From NCBI GenBank assembly GCA_012519925.1, contig JAAYPF010000105.1, positions 1 through 44,919 on the forward strand: a stretch of DNA of 44,919 nt, read 5' to 3'. Positions 12,854-34,439 of the stretch are shown here, one piece after another. Every line of letters begins with the position of its first letter. Position 1 is the first letter of the stretch. The position numbers and the translations under genes were made by a program. The notes beneath the pieces were generated by a model, which saw only the letters and a program-made list of their open reading frames with translations, had not been told where the DNA came from and did no database searches. The stretch is from Clostridiaceae bacterium. Lineage in GTDB: Bacteria > Bacillota > Clostridia > Acetivibrionales > Acetivibrionaceae.

Positions 12854-12882
12854 TTGATTTAAGTGCAAATGTTTAATAAAAT
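12854..12882 (+). promoter_or_regulatory. Possible sigma-A promoter of the GH5 gene
   Basis: TTGATT (12854-12859), 17 bases, TAAAAT (12877-12882), about 250 bases before the start codon. Confidence 0.4.
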
Positions 12883-12963: not shown

Positions 12964-12990
12964 CCCCCTAAGAACTAATAATTGCTCGAA
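12964..12990 (+). promoter_or_regulatory. SigI-type promoter of the GH5 cellulase
   Basis: CCCCC (12964-12968), then TAAGAA, 18 bases in all, then CGAA (12987-12990). SigI promoters are known for a C-tract/A-tract -35 and a CGAA -10. The same element with the same 18-base gap and a nearly identical downstream flank precedes the GH9 gene at 31240-31266. Transcription would start near 12997, giving a leader of about 135 bases. Confidence 0.6.
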
Positions 12991-13132
12991 TTAATATATA
13001 AGAGATGCTATAAAAAATATGCATTTTACTTTGTTTTTTGATGAAAATGAATATGTTTTGATTGTTATCATATGATTTTAACTTTATTAAGTTTAATATA
13101 TGAAGTACAAAATTTTGAAGGGGAGAGATTTT

Positions 13133-14821
13133 ATGAAAATGGGTAAAAGAATTGTTGCATTTGCTGCAGCACTAATGCTTACTACCATGTGTTGTTTATC
13201 AACAAACAGTGGAGTGAAAGTACAAGCAGTGGATACCAACAATGACGACTGGTTGCATTGTAAAGGAAACAAAATCTACGATATGTATGGCAATGAAGTT
13301 TGGCTTACTGGTGCAAACTGGTTTGGATTTAACTGTAGCGAGAACGTTTTTCATGGTTCGTGGTATGATGTTAAGGAGATACTATCTAGTGTGGCAGATA
13401 GAGGAATAGGACTATTAAGGGTTCCTATATCTACAGAGCTTCTCTACAGTTGGATGACAGGTAAACCTAATAAGGTTTCAAGTGTTACGGCAGCTAATGA
13501 TCCACCTTATATGGTTTTGAATCCTGACTTTTATGATCCTGAGACCGATGGTCCTAAGAACAGCATGGAAATATTCGACATTATTATGGGATACTGCAAA
13601 GAACTTGGGATAAAGGTAATGATTGATATACATAGCCCTCATGCCCATAATTCGGGACATATGTACGAATTGTGGTATGGTGCAGATACGGAAACAGCGG
13701 GTGTTGTTACTACTAAGATGTGGATAGATACATTAGTGTGGCTGACAGACAAATATAAAAATGATGACACTATTATTGCAATGGATTTAAAAAATGAACC
13801 TCATGGAAAGCGTGGTTATACAGGAAATAAATGTCCTTCAGATATTGCAAAATGGGATGATTCTAAGGATGAAAACAACTGGAAATATGCTGCGGAAATT
13901 TGTGCTAAGGCAATACTTGATGTAAATCCTAATATGTTGATAGTTATTGAGGGTGTTGAGCAATACCCTAAAACTGAAAAAGGTTATACCTATGATACCC
14001 CAGATGTTTGGGGAGCAACTGGTGATGATGCTCCTTGGTATGGTGCATGGTGGGGAGGCAATCTTAGAGGTGTAAAAGATTATCCAATTGATTTAGGTTC
14101 ACTAAATAGCCAAATAGTATATTCACCACATGATTATGGACCTTCAGTTTATAACCAAACATGGTTCGATAAGGACTTTACAACTCAGACCTTGTTGGAT
14201 GATTATTGGTACGATACATGGGCATATATAAATGACCAAAATATTGCTCCACTCTTAATTGGTGAGTGGGGAGGTCATATGGATGGTGGAAAAAATCAAA
14301 AGTGGATGGTATTGCTTAGGGATTACATGATAGAAAATCGTATTCACCATACATTCTGGTGTATAAACCCAAATTCCGGTGATACCGGTGGATTGCTTGG
14401 AAATGATTGGTCAACATGGGACGAAGAGAAATACGGATTGTTTGAAAAATCATTGTGGAAGACATCGGGAGGAAAATATATTGGACTTGATCACCAAGTT
14501 CCGCTTGGTAAAAATGGTATTTCACTAGGTGAATATTACAATACACCTAATGTTACACCTGTTAAGACTCCTACACCAGCAAAGACGCCAACACCATCGG
14601 TTAATACGCCAACGCCGTCTTCTTCCAATGTTGTTAAAGGAGATATTAATGGAGATAAAGTTTTTGATTCCCTTGATTTCGGTTCATTGAGACTATATTT
14701 ATTAGGATTTAGGACTCCTGATTATGCTTTTTGGGAAAAGGCAGCTGATATGGATGGTAACGGGGAAGTTGATTCAATAGATTTTGCATTTATGAGAAAG
14801 TTGCTTTTAGGACAAATCTAG
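13133..14821 (+). CDS. Cellulosomal GH5 endoglucanase with dockerin
   Basis: A secreted beta-1,4-glucanase that docks onto a scaffoldin. The 562-residue product has a signal peptide (1-32, ending KVQA). A GH5 barrel (about 38-470) follows, with the acid/base Glu222 in DLKNEPHG and the nucleophile Glu378 in LIGEWGG. A Pro-Thr linker (about 477-503, repeated TPTP) leads to a C-terminal type I dockerin with two calcium loops, GDINGDKVFDSLDF and ADMDGNGEVDSIDF. The architecture is that of CelG-type enzymes of Acetivibrio thermocellus. ATG 13133 fits GAAGGGGAG; an upstream in-frame ATG at 13100 would spoil the signal peptide. Substrate preference is inferred from family. Confidence 0.93.
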   Translation: MKMGKRIVAFAAALMLTTMCCLSTNSGVKVQAVDTNNDDWLHCKGNKIYDMYGNEVWLTGANWFGFNCSENVFHGSWYDVKEILSSVADRGIGLLRVPISTELLYSWMTGKPNKVSSVTAANDPPYMVLNPDFYDPETDGPKNSMEIFDIIMGYCKELGIKVMIDIHSPHAHNSGHMYELWYGADTETAGVVTTKMWIDTLVWLTDKYKNDDTIIAMDLKNEPHGKRGYTGNKCPSDIAKWDDSKDENNWKYAAEICAKAILDVNPNMLIVIEGVEQYPKTEKGYTYDTPDVWGATGDDAPWYGAWWGGNLRGVKDYPIDLGSLNSQIVYSPHDYGPSVYNQTWFDKDFTTQTLLDDYWYDTWAYINDQNIAPLLIGEWGGHMDGGKNQKWMVLLRDYMIENRIHHTFWCINPNSGDTGGLLGNDWSTWDEEKYGLFEKSLWKTSGGKYIGLDHQVPLGKNGISLGEYYNTPNVTPVKTPTPAKTPTPSVNTPTPSSSNVVKGDINGDKVFDSLDFGSLRLYLLGFRTPDYAFWEKAADMDGNGEVDSIDFAFMRKLLLGQI

Positions 14822-25699: not shown

Positions 25700-28558
25700 A
25701 TGTTCAAATTAAAGACGAAATTAGCTTTGATACTAACCGTATTATTTGTTATTCAGATAGTTTCTATATGTGGAACTTATGGAAATGTTTTTGCTGAAGA
25801 TATACATGTTGCTGAAGAAGATTTTATGTATGGAGATGTTAATGGCGATGGCGATATTAATTCACTTGATTTTGCCTATATGAGGCGATATATTTTAGGT
25901 TTTATTAAAGAGTTTCCAAGTGTTAATGGGAATAGAGCTGCAGATGTTGATGGAAATGGAAGCATTGATTCTTTAGATTTTGCTTATATGAGACGATACG
26001 TGCTTGAAATAATTAAGGAGTTTCCTGTGAATAAGTCACCTGTGACTTCAACACCTACTCCAACAGTATCGCCAACGCCGATTAATCTTAAAGCAAATGC
26101 TGGGACTGATATAGTTACATATAAGTCATTTAAAGTATCATTAGACGGTTCACTAAGTACATTTCCTGAAGGAGAACCCGTTTCGTTCAAATGGAGAATT
26201 GTATCAAAGCCGGTAGAAAGTAATGCTGCTTTAGATAATCCAAGTGTATATAATCCAAGTTTTGTTGCCGATGCAAAAGGTGAGTATGTCTTAGGATTAA
26301 CAGTTAGTGCTGGTATGGATACAAGTGACGAAGCACTTTTAAGTGTAAAAGTTAAGGAAATTGGAGCAACCACTGATGATATTGATGAAAGTTTTATTTG
26401 TGAAGAGACTTTGACAGGATATGATTTTGAGGATTTTATTCCACTTTCAGATGGTTGGATTATTGCAAAAGATCAAACTTTAAACAAAGTTATATTCAAA
26501 AATGTTTTTTCAGGCGAACATGGAAAAGAGTTTTCACTCCAGGGAAAGCCTAACAAGATGGAATATGACTTTGAAAGAGAAATGTTACTTGTTAGTCTCA
26601 CTGATATTAATATGATTGCAAAAATAAATATGAGAACTGAAGAAATTACATACATAAGCATAAATGGCGAGATCATAGAAATGACTCTAGGTGAGCGGGG
26701 AATTATTTTCGTAATGACAGGTACTAAAATTTATGCTGTTGATGCAGAAAAAGAAAAGGTTCTAAGCAGCGTAAATGGTAGTTATAACCTAGCGACCTAT
26801 GACAAGTATGGGAACAATTTGTTTGTAGCAGTTGCAGAAGTTAGTCCGTGTACCTTGGCAAGGTATTCTTTTAATGAAAAAACTAAAGAGTTAGAATTAC
26901 AACAGAGCAGTAGAGAACTTGGCTCAAATGCACGGGATATAGCTATATCTAATGATGGAAAGCATTTGGTTTTGTGTTGTGGTGGAGGTAATGGATACGG
27001 TTATACTATATTTGATATTGATAGTTCAGATATTACCCAGAAATTTGGAGAATGGAATGTAGGAATATACCCAAGGTCAGCAGAATTTTCTCTTGATGAC
27101 AAATATCTAGTTGCTTCAAATGGTTTTCAAATTAAGATATTTGATGTTGAGACTTATAGTGAAATATCTTTGGTAAGTAAAGTGACAAATTCCAAGGATG
27201 ATCTTTGTTTTTCAAGAGGAGGCAAAATAATATATAATTTTGACGGAGAGAATCTACATTTATATAGAAGTGGTATTGTTCAGTCAGAGGTTGCTCCGCC
27301 GCAAATAGTTATATCACCAATTGCGTACACTACAGCAGACAAGTCTACACTTAAGGGTTTGGTAGTAAAATTGGATGGAAGTATAAGCGATAGAGGTACT
27401 GGAAGTTACCTTGAATACAATTGGGAGATGGTTTCAAAGCCAGAAAATAGTCAGAGTGTACTGAAGGAGACAAATTCTTCAACCCCCACTTTCATACCTG
27501 ATATGCCGGGACAATACAGAGTTTCCTTATTTGTGTGTAATGAGGCTGGTGAAAGTGACATAGCATTTGTAAATATTACGGTTCAAGACATGATGGAAAC
27601 TGTCGATGAAATTGGTAATATTGAAGATGGTTATCTTGAAGGATATGTTTCAATAAAGCCCATCGCATTGCCAAGTGGTTGGATAATAGCTGCAGATACG
27701 GAAAATGTGATAAAATTTGTAAATGTACTAACTGGCGAAGTTGCGAATCAATATCAATTATCTGACACACCGAGTAAATTAAGTTTTGATTTTGAAAGCT
27801 ATAGAATTATTGCATCTTTGACAGAGGTTAATAAAATTGCAGTAATTGATATTGGAAAAGATACTATATACTATATAAATACACCTTACTCATATCAGGG
27901 AATAGCATATGGTGAAAACAATATTGCTTTTGCTATTTCAAAGGGTAAGCAATCTGCTTACATAAGTGTAATAGATATTAATAAAAAAGAAGTTTTGAAT
28001 TCCATTAATGTTAGCGTATATAATGCTGGCTTAATTGAATACGACAAAAATAACAACAATTTATTCATAGCAGATAGAGGATTGAGTCCTAGTAGTCTAA
28101 GAAGATATTCCTTCGATGAAACTACAAATGAACTAAAGTTTGAACAGGGGCTCCCTATGGGTGGAAATGGAATAGACTTGAGTATTTCGAGTGATGGAAA
28201 ACATGTGATATTATGTAGTAGTGGTGGAAACGGAAATGGATATACTATATTTGATGTAGATGCTACTGATATAGAGAAAAAGTTTGGTGAATTTGTAACA
28301 GATGCATATCCTACATCCGGTGCATTTACATATGATGAGAAGTATTTTGTGGCTTCAAACGGTTGGAATCTTTTGTTGTTTGATGCTAGTAATTATAATT
28401 TGATTACTTCTATGAATTATGAAGGTTCTCCAGGAGTTTACGATAAAGTACTGTTTTCTAGAGGCAATAGGTTGATAATTGATGTTATTGAAGATAGAAT
28501 TTATTACTTTAAGAATCCTTTATATGAGTATCCTATTTTTAATCATAAAGAAAAATAG
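25700..28558 (+). CDS. Secreted N-terminal dockerin protein with duplicated PKD-propeller units
   Basis: A likely non-catalytic cellulosome component. The 952-residue product has a signal peptide (about 1-32). A dockerin follows directly (44-108) with two calcium loops, GDVNGDGDINSLDFAYMRRY and ADVDGNGSIDSLDFAYMRRY. After a TPTPT linker come two copies of one unit: a PKD/Ig-like domain (128-220 and 533-630) and a roughly 300-residue WD/YVTN-like beta-propeller (230-530 and 637-945). The copies share lines such as ISNDGKHLVLC against ISSDGKHVILC, and GYTIFDIDSSDI against GYTIFDVDATDI. I see no known catalytic motif. It may bind polysaccharide or protein, or be an uncharacterised enzyme. Confidence 0.85.
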   Translation: MFKLKTKLALILTVLFVIQIVSICGTYGNVFAEDIHVAEEDFMYGDVNGDGDINSLDFAYMRRYILGFIKEFPSVNGNRAADVDGNGSIDSLDFAYMRRYVLEIIKEFPVNKSPVTSTPTPTVSPTPINLKANAGTDIVTYKSFKVSLDGSLSTFPEGEPVSFKWRIVSKPVESNAALDNPSVYNPSFVADAKGEYVLGLTVSAGMDTSDEALLSVKVKEIGATTDDIDESFICEETLTGYDFEDFIPLSDGWIIAKDQTLNKVIFKNVFSGEHGKEFSLQGKPNKMEYDFEREMLLVSLTDINMIAKINMRTEEITYISINGEIIEMTLGERGIIFVMTGTKIYAVDAEKEKVLSSVNGSYNLATYDKYGNNLFVAVAEVSPCTLARYSFNEKTKELELQQSSRELGSNARDIAISNDGKHLVLCCGGGNGYGYTIFDIDSSDITQKFGEWNVGIYPRSAEFSLDDKYLVASNGFQIKIFDVETYSEISLVSKVTNSKDDLCFSRGGKIIYNFDGENLHLYRSGIVQSEVAPPQIVISPIAYTTADKSTLKGLVVKLDGSISDRGTGSYLEYNWEMVSKPENSQSVLKETNSSTPTFIPDMPGQYRVSLFVCNEAGESDIAFVNITVQDMMETVDEIGNIEDGYLEGYVSIKPIALPSGWIIAADTENVIKFVNVLTGEVANQYQLSDTPSKLSFDFESYRIIASLTEVNKIAVIDIGKDTIYYINTPYSYQGIAYGENNIAFAISKGKQSAYISVIDINKKEVLNSINVSVYNAGLIEYDKNNNNLFIADRGLSPSSLRRYSFDETTNELKFEQGLPMGGNGIDLSISSDGKHVILCSSGGNGNGYTIFDVDATDIEKKFGEFVTDAYPTSGAFTYDEKYFVASNGWNLLLFDASNYNLITSMNYEGSPGVYDKVLFSRGNRLIIDVIEDRIYYFKNPLYEYPIFNHKEK

Positions 28559-31093: not shown

Positions 31094-31130
31094 AAAAAAG
31101 AGACCAGTGAAATAAATTGGTCTCTTTTTT
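31094..31130 (+). terminator. Terminator after groEL
   Basis: AAAAAAGAGACCA (31094-31106) pairs with TGGTCTCTTTTTT (31118-31130). Confidence 0.9.
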
Positions 31131-31239: not shown

Positions 31240-31266
31240 CCCCCTAAAAAAAAAAATTATTGCGAA
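31240..31266 (+). promoter_or_regulatory. SigI-type promoter of the GH9 gene
   Basis: CCCCC (31240-31244), then T and A11 within an 18-base spacer, then CGAA (31263-31266). The spacer length equals that of the GH5 promoter, and the bases after CGAA also agree (AATAAATATATTAG against AATTAATATATAAG). Its leader would be about 550 bases. Confidence 0.6.
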
Positions 31267-31421
31267 TAAATATATTAGTTTAGTGTTTAAGTTAGTCCAA
31301 AAAGATTAAAACTGAACGAATTGTAGTGAAATAAGCGTGCTAGCCGCAGGAGGTTAAAGTTTAGTTTATTAGTGAAAGGTTAGAAGAGTGTGTAATGTAT
31401 GCGAACTTTCTAATTTAGTAG

Positions 31422-31450
31422 TTGATAAAAATATGTTTATCTTATATAAT
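31422..31450 (+). promoter_or_regulatory. Sigma-A-like promoter of the GH9 gene
   Basis: TTGATA (31422-31427), 17 bases, TATAAT (31445-31450). Confidence 0.5.
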
Positions 31451-31820
31451 TAAAATTAATAGGATACTTAAATTTAACAAAAGGTATAAATAAATATTAT
31501 AATTAGTTCCTAATACTTCTATTTTATTTTCTATGAACAGTTCAAGTTATATTTGTTGTAATTCATTTCAGCATAGATTTGTTTATTTCATTCTATTTTA
31601 TATCAAACATTTTGGAATATAACTGTTTTGTGTGATGTAGATAGATGTATCTATTTCTTTTAGTCTACATAATTTCTGACAGTGTTTTTGTTGTCTTTGT
31701 TTATTTTGTTATGTTTTAATTTGCGAGCTAGTTCGAAATCTTTGTCAAGGGGGGTTGAAAAAGCAAATTGATATCGAGCTATTTCGTAAAAAATCAGATA
31801 AAACATTATGGAGGTAGAAA

Positions 31821-34439
31821 ATGATATACAATAAGGTGAAGAATGTTAAAAAATTAAGAACTGTAATATCAGCATTTGCTGTAGCTGCACTTTTAGCTAC
31901 ATCTATACCAACTGCAGTATTTGCAGGCAAAGATTCAAATCCAAACTTGCCCAATTATAACAACGATTTGCTTTATGAAAGGACTTTTGATGAGGGCCTC
32001 ATTTATCCATGGCATACATGTGAAGATACTGGTGGACTTTGTGACTTTTCAGTAGAAGATGGTGCTATGGTATTAGAGATTGAAGATCCAGGGCAAAACG
32101 AGTGGAGTTGTCAAATGCGTCATAGAATGATAACTCTTGAGCAAGGACATACATACAATATACGTTTTAAAGTTTGGGCTAACAAAAGTGCTAGAGTATA
32201 TGCCAAAATTGGACAACAAGGTGGAGAATACAAAGATTATTGGACTAACGACTGGAAAAAGATAGATTTATCAACGTCTCCTCAAGTAGTAGAAGCTAGC
32301 TTTACAATGAATTATGCAACAGATGAGACTTGTGAATTTACTTTCCATGCTGGTGGAGCTTTGACTACAGCTGGCACAAAAATTTATATTGACGAAATTT
32401 CATTATATGATTCACAATTTACAAAACCTATAATTCACATAATGGAGAAGCCTGATGTTAGGGTTAACCAAGTTGGTTATTTCCCTAATAGAGCAAAAGT
32501 AGCTACAGTTGTTACCGATTCAAGTTCTCCTGTTAAATGGACACTTTATAATAGCGGTGGAAGTGCAGTTGCTAGTGGTACAACAAAAGTAAAAGGTTTC
32601 GACAAAGATTCACAAGATAATGTTCACTTGCTTGATTTTTCAAATTTCACTACACCAGGAAAGGACTACTATTTCGAAATAGATACAAATAGTAGTACAA
32701 ATTACAGTCACAAGTTTGATATATCAGAAGATATCTACTCTGATCTGAAAATGGATGCAATTCAATATTTCTATCACAATAGAAGCGGTATAGAAATAAC
32801 AATGCCTTATGCAGGAAGAGAAGACCTAACTAGACCTGCAGGACACATTGGTAAGTCACCTAATACGGGAGACCTAAGCGTTCCTACATGGCCAAATTCA
32901 GGACAAAAGAGCTACTCACTTGATGTTTCGGGTGGATGGTACGATGCTGGTGACCATGGGAAATATGTTGTTAACGGTGGTATAGCTGTTTGGACAATGT
33001 TAAATCAGTTTGAAAGAGCAAAGATTGCAAATGCTCTTGACCGTGCTCCATACGCTGATGGTACAATGAATATTCCTGAAAAGAACAATGGACTTTATGA
33101 TATTCTTGATGAAGCAAAATGGCAAATGGATTTCTTAATGAAGATGCAAGTACCTTCAGATAAAGACGCTTCTTTAGCTGGAATGGTTCATCACAAGATA
33201 CATGACGAGTCATGGACAGCATTAGGATTATTGCCACATGAAGATCCAAAAGATAGATATTTGCGTCCAGTAAGTACAGCTGCTACCTTGAACTTAGCTG
33301 CAACTGCTGCACAGGCTTCTCGTATTTGGAAAGACATAGATTCATCATATTCCAACAAGTGTTTAGAAGCAGCTGAAGCTGCATGGGCAGCAGCAAAGAA
33401 GAATCCTGCTTTATATGCTCCAGATTTCCAAGAAGGTGGCGGACCATACAATGACAATAATGTAGTTGATGAATTCTACTGGGCTGCTTGTGAGCTTTTT
33501 GTTACAACAGGAAAATCAGAATACAAGGAATATCTACAGAATTCAGAACATTACCTCAAGATGCCTTCAAGATTAAGTGATGGTGAAGACGATGGTCTAT
33601 ATGGTTGCTTTACATGGGGTAGTACTCAAGGTTTAGGAACAATTTCACTTGCTCTTAATCCGAATGATTTAGGGTCTTCTGAAATTCAAAAAGCTAGACA
33701 AAACATAGCAAAAGCTGCTGATGTATGGCTTGGCAACATTGAAGAACAAGGATATAGATTACCAATATTGTCAGACAGCAAAGGTGATTATCCATGGGGT
33801 TCAAACTCATTTATATTAAATATGATGATGGTATTTGCATATTCTTATGAGTTTACAGGAGAATCAAAATACTTAGATGGAATGTCAGAAAGTATGGACT
33901 ATATTTTAGGTAGAAACGCTATGGACCAGTGTTATGTTACTGGTTATGGTGAGCGTTATCTTGAAAATCCTCACCACAGATTCTGGGCTTATCAACTTAG
34001 TAAAGAGTTCCCTAAAGCTCCAGCTGGTGTTGTTTCCGGTGGTCCGAATTCAAACTTCCAGGATCCAACTATAAATGCGGCAGTTCCAAAGGATACTCCA
34101 GCACAAAAATGCTTCTTAGATCATATAGATTCTTGGTCAACAAATGAAATTACTATAAACTGGAATGCTCCATTTGCTTGGACAACAGCTTATCTTGATG
34201 AAAAAGCAGGAAGCGAAGGCGAAGTGGTTACAGAAGTACTTCTTGGAGATGTAAATCTTGACGAAGAAATTGATTCTCTCGACTTTGGACTTATGAGAAG
34301 AGTCTTGCTTGGAATGAATAGTGATTTCACTGGTGATGCATTAAAAGCAGCAGATATTAACAAAGACGGGGAATTCAACTCTCTTGACTTTGGTGCATTA
34401 AGACTTCATTTACTTGGAATTAGAGAAATACAACAATAA
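31821..34439 (+). CDS. Cellulosomal CBM4-Ig-GH9 cellobiohydrolase-like enzyme with dockerin
   Basis: A secreted cellulase of the CelK/CbhA type. The 872-residue product has a signal peptide (1-35, ending AVFA) and a CBM4-like carbohydrate-binding module (about 45-205). An Ig-like domain (about 213-300) precedes the GH9 catalytic domain (about 305-795). The catalytic Asp pair is Asp375/Asp378 in [10 protein letters not shown], a conserved His is in ENPHHRFW, and the acid Glu776 is in [13 protein letters not shown]. The C-terminal dockerin (about 808-868) reads [19 protein letters not shown] and [19 protein letters not shown]. The first loop lacks the usual Gly after Asp (NLDEE). GGAGG precedes ATG 31821. 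Exo action is inferred from the CelK-like architecture. Confidence 0.94.

Follow-up and report, generated by a model that had tools for sequence, protein, structure and literature searches.

Putative SigI-class promoters upstream of GH5 and GH9 cellulase genes in a Clostridiaceae bacterium and their likely link to a SigI2 orthologue

Within the 44,919-nucleotide stretch of Clostridiaceae DNA analysed here (hereafter the window), a GH5 and a GH9 cellulosomal cellulase gene each carry CCCCC-N18-CGAA upstream, both on the + strand and with equal spacing. We interpret both sites as SigI-class promoters, most likely used by the orthologue of SigI2 in a cellulose-responsive gene set, and judging from sequence comparison we put the probability of this reading at about 0.8. 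The sites are conserved gene by gene between species, and their refined motif is restricted, genus-wide, to cellulase genes and a sigI2-rsgI2(CBM3) operon. We infer that a SigI factor reads the sites, that this factor is SigI2 and neither one of SigI1 type nor the two together, that the GH5 variant is functional, and that cellulose acts as the signal. The features concerned are these:

12854–12882, + strand: sigma-A-like promoter TTGATT-17-TAAAAT, upstream of the GH5 gene (9/12 consensus positions, plus conservation).
12964–12972, + strand: -35 element of the GH5 site, CCCCC-T-AAG, with AAG at the A-tract position (read from the sequence, pattern match, weight matrix).
12987–12990, + strand: -10 element of the GH5 site, CGAA, followed by TTAATATA (read from the sequence).
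13133–14821, + strand: GH5 cellulase with a type I dockerin (domain search, scanned from 13100).
31094–31130, + strand: terminator-like hairpin 3′ of groEL (1 found against 0.1 in shuffles).
31240–31256, + strand: -35 element of the GH9 site, CCCCC-T followed by 11 A, with the A-tract intact (read from the sequence, pattern match, weight matrix).
31263–31266, + strand: -10 element of the GH9 site, CGAA, followed by TAAATATA (read from the sequence).
31422–31450, + strand: sigma-A-like promoter TTGATA-17-TATAAT (11/12 consensus positions; kept at the orthologue in G001, a genome of the same genus).
31821–34439, + strand: CelK-like GH9 cellulase, CBM4-Ig-GH9-dockerin I (domain search; NCBIfam NF049990 at 1545 bits, below its cut-off of 1700).

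The GH5 site spans 12964–12990, 142 nt upstream of the likely start of its gene, for which ATG 13133, preceded by GGGGAGAG, is more likely than the ORF start at 13100; the GH9 site spans 31240–31266, 554 nt upstream of the GH9 start ATG at 31821. The sequence-only reading had described the matching spacing exactly, had rightly counted two differing positions in the 16 bases from CGAA onward, and had named sigma-A-like promoters at 12854 and 31422 that are indeed present. Taking the C of CGAA as -14, after the CGWA motif numbering given in passages of PMC10575876, transcription is predicted to start near 13001 for GH5 and near 31277 for GH9. The hairpin at 31094–31130, between groEL and the GH9 site, would shield the GH9 gene from read-through.

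Published SigI promoters of C. thermocellum and C. straminisolvens, as passages of PMC4711584 and PMC6056542 describe them, combine a C-rich specificity region, the A-tract AAA, a distance of 13–14 nt, CGWA, and TW four bases further on. An earlier description of the two sites, as a C-rich -35 with a CGAA -10, was correct about the boxes and omitted the A-tract of the published -35. The GH9 site shows all of these features, AAA and a 14-nt distance from AAA to CGAA included. The GH5 site shows every one except the A-tract, since AAG stands at the 3′ end of its -35 element in this genome and in two others of the genus, G001 and G002. Counted right after CCCCCT, this AAG lies 14 nt from CGAA, within the published range, and TW is found four bases after CGWA at both the GH5 and GH9 sites (CGAA-TTAA-TA, CGAA-TAAA-TA). 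Because of the A-tract departure, we describe the GH5 site as a SigI-like variant and do not file it as a canonical member of the class.

Known SigI promoters offer several points of comparison. The sigI2 promoters of C. thermocellum and C. straminisolvens (Table 1 of PMC4711584) share the arrangement of CCCCC, one base, AAA, 14 nt and CGAA, and that of C. straminisolvens, CCCCCTAAA-N14-CGAA, equals the GH9 site in its fixed positions. Those promoters, however, precede sigI2, whereas the present sites precede GH9 and GH5 hydrolase genes, the latter with AAG. The cel48S and cipA promoters of C. thermocellum (Table 2 of PMC4711584; passages of PMC6056542) are alike in their C-rich -35, A-tract, CGAA and subsequent AT-rich run, and the long cel48S leader (498 nt) has a counterpart in the GH9 leader, ~544 nt by the predicted start. 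They differ in having CTCAAA, not CTAAA, before the spacer and in serving other genes; the GH48 gene of the present genome has the CCCCCTAAAA form. The Bacillales SigI consensus listed in PMC4711584, ACCCCC--AA-N15-CGAA----T, likewise contains the C-tract, CGAA and T four bases on, and requires only AA after the C-tract, but it places the C-tract 19 nt from CGAA, against 18 here, and its AA one base later.

Within the window, CCCCC-N17-19-CGAA matches the GH5 and GH9 sites only; shuffled windows hold 0.11 matches on average, and two or more occur in 2 of 100. A weight matrix was built from 39 of the 40 published C. thermocellum SigI promoters (rsgI9 was left out), most of which are predictions and some of which were confirmed by reporter tests. 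Scanned over both strands of the window, it gives 25.1 at the GH9 site and 20.3 at the GH5 site, the next separate site reaching 13.8; the highest score in 15 first-order Markov resamples of the window was 17.9.

Genome-wide, matches had been expected to concentrate upstream of dockerin and sigI-rsgI genes. This did not hold for the loose CCCCC-N17-19-CGAA, which shows no enrichment (11 matches against 21 of the reversed pattern), so that CCCCC and CGAA alone do not discriminate; six of its seven non-SigI-like matches lie within open frames of at least 90 codons on either strand, and its four SigI-like ones do not. It did hold for the refined pattern CCCCCTAAR-N13-15-CGAA. In this genome the refined pattern has four matches (reversed control, 1), upstream of GH5, GH9, a GH48 gene on contig C87 and a sigI-rsgI operon on contig C176. 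The four matches in G001 (reversed, 0) lie upstream of the same four genes, and the two in G002 (reversed, 0) belong to GH5 and the same sigI operon. Across the three genus genomes, all 10 matches therefore fall at GH5, GH9, GH48 or sigI2, against a single reversed-control match.

The refined pattern was shaped on the four sites of this genome, and those at GH5 and GH9 in G001 and G002 were already known beforehand; the independent part of the scan comprises the sites at GH48 and sigI in G001 and at sigI in G002, together with the lack of any further match in either genome. Only ~1% of the genome lies upstream of dockerin and rsgI genes on the same strand, and both matches outside the window fall within this share (p ~1e-4). 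A general SigI pattern, CCCC-NN-AAA-N12-15-CGWA, was also tried and rejected; it is not enriched, with matches and reversed matches numbering 17/14 here, 9/12 in G001 and 11/24 in G002.

In 14 genomes outside the genus, the refined pattern stays at background, with five matches (two in G005, one in G014, two in G017) against eight reversed. One G017 match lies within a coding frame and the other has no ORF close downstream, and the G014 match sits at a frame edge. In G005, which belongs to the same family and another genus, one match (CCCCCTAAAA...CGAA, locus L270, 1501–1528) lies ~350 nt upstream of a GH9 gene, and the second precedes an ORF judged secreted by eye.

With the matrix we scored 79 of the 87 dockerin and rsgI upstream regions of the genome, excluding two without a start codon and six with <150 nt. 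GH9 ranks first (25.1) and the GH48-dockerin gene on C87 second (24.0), followed by a GH30-CBM6-dockerin gene on contig C192 (23.5), GH5 (20.3), a sigI-rsgI operon on contig C220 (19.8) and the sigI2 operon on C176 (19.7); GH48 and GH30-CBM6 were assigned by Pfam. On the antisense strands of the same regions the median is 5.2 and the 95th percentile 10.9; the top antisense score, 19.7, is the C176 sigI2 site seen from a divergent dockerin gene, and 15.3 follows it. When the 79 regions are taken together, sense scores exceed antisense ones only slightly (Wilcoxon p 0.04), which indicates that only a minority of the dockerin genes of this genome carry such a site.

Two further dockerin genes deserve mention. 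The GH30-CBM6-dockerin gene on C192 (locus L138) lies near a PA14-bearing RsgI and has ACCCCTAAAA...CGAATATATATA 123 nt before its first start codon; going by this site, which has four C's, the gene is a probable further SigI target. Within the window, the protein encoded at 25700–28558 combines a dockerin at its N terminus with beta-propeller-like and PKD domains, and the best SigI-like site of its gene, GACGCCATAAA...CGTATTAG, is weak (11.9).

Comparison between genomes revealed that the boxes are retained at the same genes. All three genus genomes examined retain the GH5 form CCCCCTAAG...CGAA: the orthologues in G001 and G002 (82% and 76% protein identity) have CCCCCTAAGAA...CGAA at -178 and -132, respectively, compared with -169 here. 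The GH9 form CCCCCTAAA...CGAA is kept in both genus genomes having a close orthologue, at -581 here and, as CCCCCTAAAAAA...CGAATAAGTATA, at -569 in G001 (76% identity); in G002 no close GH9 orthologue was found, the best match having 34% identity. Between this genome and G001, a 35-nt block at the GH5 site reaches 91% identity; the remainder of the 345-nt upstream region has 59%, and no other 35-nt stretch of that region is better conserved between the two. Block conservation is weaker elsewhere, at 63% between this genome and G002 (52% outside) and 54% between G001 and G002 (52% outside), and a 45-nt GH9 block shared with G001 reaches 71% (63% outside). These low identities reflect spacers that have drifted and alignments that slip, while the boxes stay. 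The two genes had been called unlinked; they are indeed separate transcription units, yet they are neighbours in a conserved region, with their sites ~18.2 kb apart both in this genome and in G001.

The scan of loci outside the genus took in 14 of GH9 type, to which three more were added (best score 7.4), and 12 of GH5 type (best score 10.3); loci L057 and L078, which contig ends cut to upstream flanks of only 129 and 313 nt, and L065–L067 gave nothing above 4.1. Among GH5 relatives from named genomes, scored over 500 nt upstream, the best sense score was 13.4 and the best antisense score 17.8 (78 of 80 scored, two having been dropped for a short flank and some of the 78 being short-flanked as well). 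The genus itself offers a full SigI-like site at a GH5 paralogue of G001 (L086), CCCCTTAAA-N14-CGAA at -187 (matrix score 23.1), and CCCCTAAAAA...CGAA lies directly upstream of a GH5 paralogue of G002 (G002:C9:675073).

Since both cellulase genes also have sigma-A-like promoters, their control is probably dual. Sigma-A-like consensus matches are no commoner than in shuffles (GH5 region: 5 found, 3.6 in shuffles; GH9 region: 2 found, 5.4 in shuffles), and their weight thus rests on conservation. Of the nine GH5 upstream regions selected for comparison, eight contain TTGATT-17-TAAAAT, several of them having no SigI-like site, so that this element is distributed more widely than the SigI site. 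The simplest history would make the sigma-A-like promoter of GH5 ancestral and have the SigI site gained in the genus, or lost elsewhere.

The GH9 leader has features of its own. Two sigma-A-like promoters stand in tandem at 31422 and 31474 (31422–31503), each matching 11/12 consensus positions. Immediately 5′ of the GH9 ribosome-binding site, a hairpin occupies 31720–31790; the segment 31700–31830 has a folding z-score of -2.98, with 1 of 200 shuffles equally stable. In G001 the hairpin has 84% identity and shows at least one base pair altered on both sides (U-A to C-G, judged by eye); a search of this genome at E up to 0.001 returned no second copy. At gathering score, Rfam returned no family anywhere in the window, and at E up to 1 none in 31260–31830. 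The hairpin is a possible candidate for a leader RNA element.

Ten RsgI_N matches were found in this genome, and two sigI products were recognised by NCBIfam; the genome thus encodes SigI/RsgI pairs, as expected where cellulosome producers have SigI-dependent promoters. Of the C. thermocellum paralogues compared, SigI2 is the closest to the sigI product of C176 (60% identity, against at most 43% for the others), with a clade support of 1.00, and by these measures the C176 product is the orthologue of SigI2. G008 was taken as C. thermocellum because its sigI promoters match the published ones, and the site upstream of its SigI2 gene (L255) equals the published sigI2 promoter over the 37 nt shown in PMC4711584. 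Five of 40 rsgI loci (L015, L020, L256, L259 and L266) yielded no sigI ORF, 3 of 33 rsgI matches came without a locus, and the frame taken for G008 L258 falls outside the SigI tree.

The RsgI encoded on C176 comprises RsgI_N, RsgI_M and CBM3, as do its orthologues in G001 and G002, and a passage of PMC12203970 reports that the CBM3 of RsgI2 recognises cellulose. The sigI2 operon's own site bears CCCCCTAAAA in all three genomes. GH9 and GH48, with CCCCCTAAAA, and GH5, with CCCCCTAAG, share this -35 region with the sigI2 promoter, as would be expected of a SigI2 regulon. SigI factors usually autoregulate their own operon (passages of PMC6056542), and this, together with the shared form of the sigI2 promoter, makes SigI2 the best candidate reader. 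RsgI2 would bind cellulose through its CBM3 and release SigI2, and free SigI2 would transcribe its own operon together with the GH48, GH9 and GH5 cellulosomal cellulase genes, adding to basal sigma-A transcription of GH5 and GH9. On this sequence-based model, GH5, GH9, GH48 and the sigI2 operon are probably switched on together upon contact with cellulose.

Other explanations deserve weighing. Chance resemblance in AT-rich intergenic DNA would accord with loose patterns that are no commoner than their reversed controls, and with the shuffled windows that hold two loose matches; it is very hard to credit when no resample of the window attains a matrix score of 20, the sites are conserved by gene across species, and every refined match in the genus falls at the four kinds of gene named above. 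A further account accepts the GH9 site and regards that of GH5 as decayed or inactive, its A-tract broken, with GH5 running from the sigma-A-like promoter at 12854. AAG in place of AAA fits this account, as does the wider spread of the sigma-A-like element; in published mutagenesis of a SigI3 promoter, single changes in AAA abolished activity (passages of PMC6056542), which makes AAG a point against our main reading as well. We nevertheless find decay improbable, given that the GH5 form is kept in all three species and that, of all 35-nt stretches upstream, its block is the best conserved between this genome and G001.

It is quite possible, though we lean against it, that the sites are SigI-class promoters whose main reader is a SigI1-type factor, or which several SigI factors read, as opposed to SigI2 alone. 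GH48, with the same promoter, directly adjoins a sigI-rsgI(CBM3) operon on C87 whose sigI best matches C. thermocellum SigI1 (57.6%), an arrangement also present in G001; SigI1 may thus be the reader, and this, too, weighs against the SigI2 explanation. The "universal" cel48S and cipA promoters of C. thermocellum (CCCCTCAAA/CGAA) are common to several SigI factors (passages of PMC6056542), and by analogy crosstalk between SigI factors may occur here as well. The usual autoregulation of SigI factors nevertheless disfavours a SigI1-type reader, for the best site of the SigI1-type operon itself, GTACACTAAAA...CGAATTATTTAT (12.2), has no C-tract, whereas the sigI2 operon has CCCCCTAAAA throughout the three genus genomes. 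The SigI1 orthology of the C87 sigI is also loose, with a tree support of 0.45, and a sigI on contig C171 matches SigI1 equally (57.9%).

Control by the SigI2 orthologue accordingly remains our preferred reading. The sequence-only proposal that GH5 and GH9 form part of one regulon gains support from the recurrence of the refined motif at the same four genes in two species, and draws none from the looser motif. A bolder scenario, tentative and in our view rather doubtful as a whole, is that SigI2 took over a compact set in the genus, consisting of its own operon, GH48, the CelK-like GH9 and GH5. The GH5 site would then have been added beside an older sigma-A promoter as a conserved, working exception to the A-tract, and the C-terminal domain of SigI2 would tolerate variation in the -35 minor groove that SigI3 has not been seen to accept.

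Our literature search found no publication describing such a regulon in this genus; supplementary tables, which lay outside the search, may print sigI promoters of the genus. The SigI regulons in the passages surveyed are mainly those of C. thermocellum, plus one P. cellulosolvens factor, and the regulation passages of PMC5801460 and PMC11557425 treat RsgI sensing in general terms.

The system described here extends known SigI control and is not a new kind of regulation. The conserved AAG of GH5 provides a natural test of A-tract strictness, and this exception and the dual promoters are the parts that merit experiment. The orthologues examined from the thermocellum lineage lack the site, a sign that closely related genera may differ in which genes belong to the regulon. 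Two species share a set of four genes marked by one promoter signature, and this set, combined with an anti-sigma factor that bears a CBM3, offers a hypothesis for how contact with cellulose could be coupled to three cellulases.
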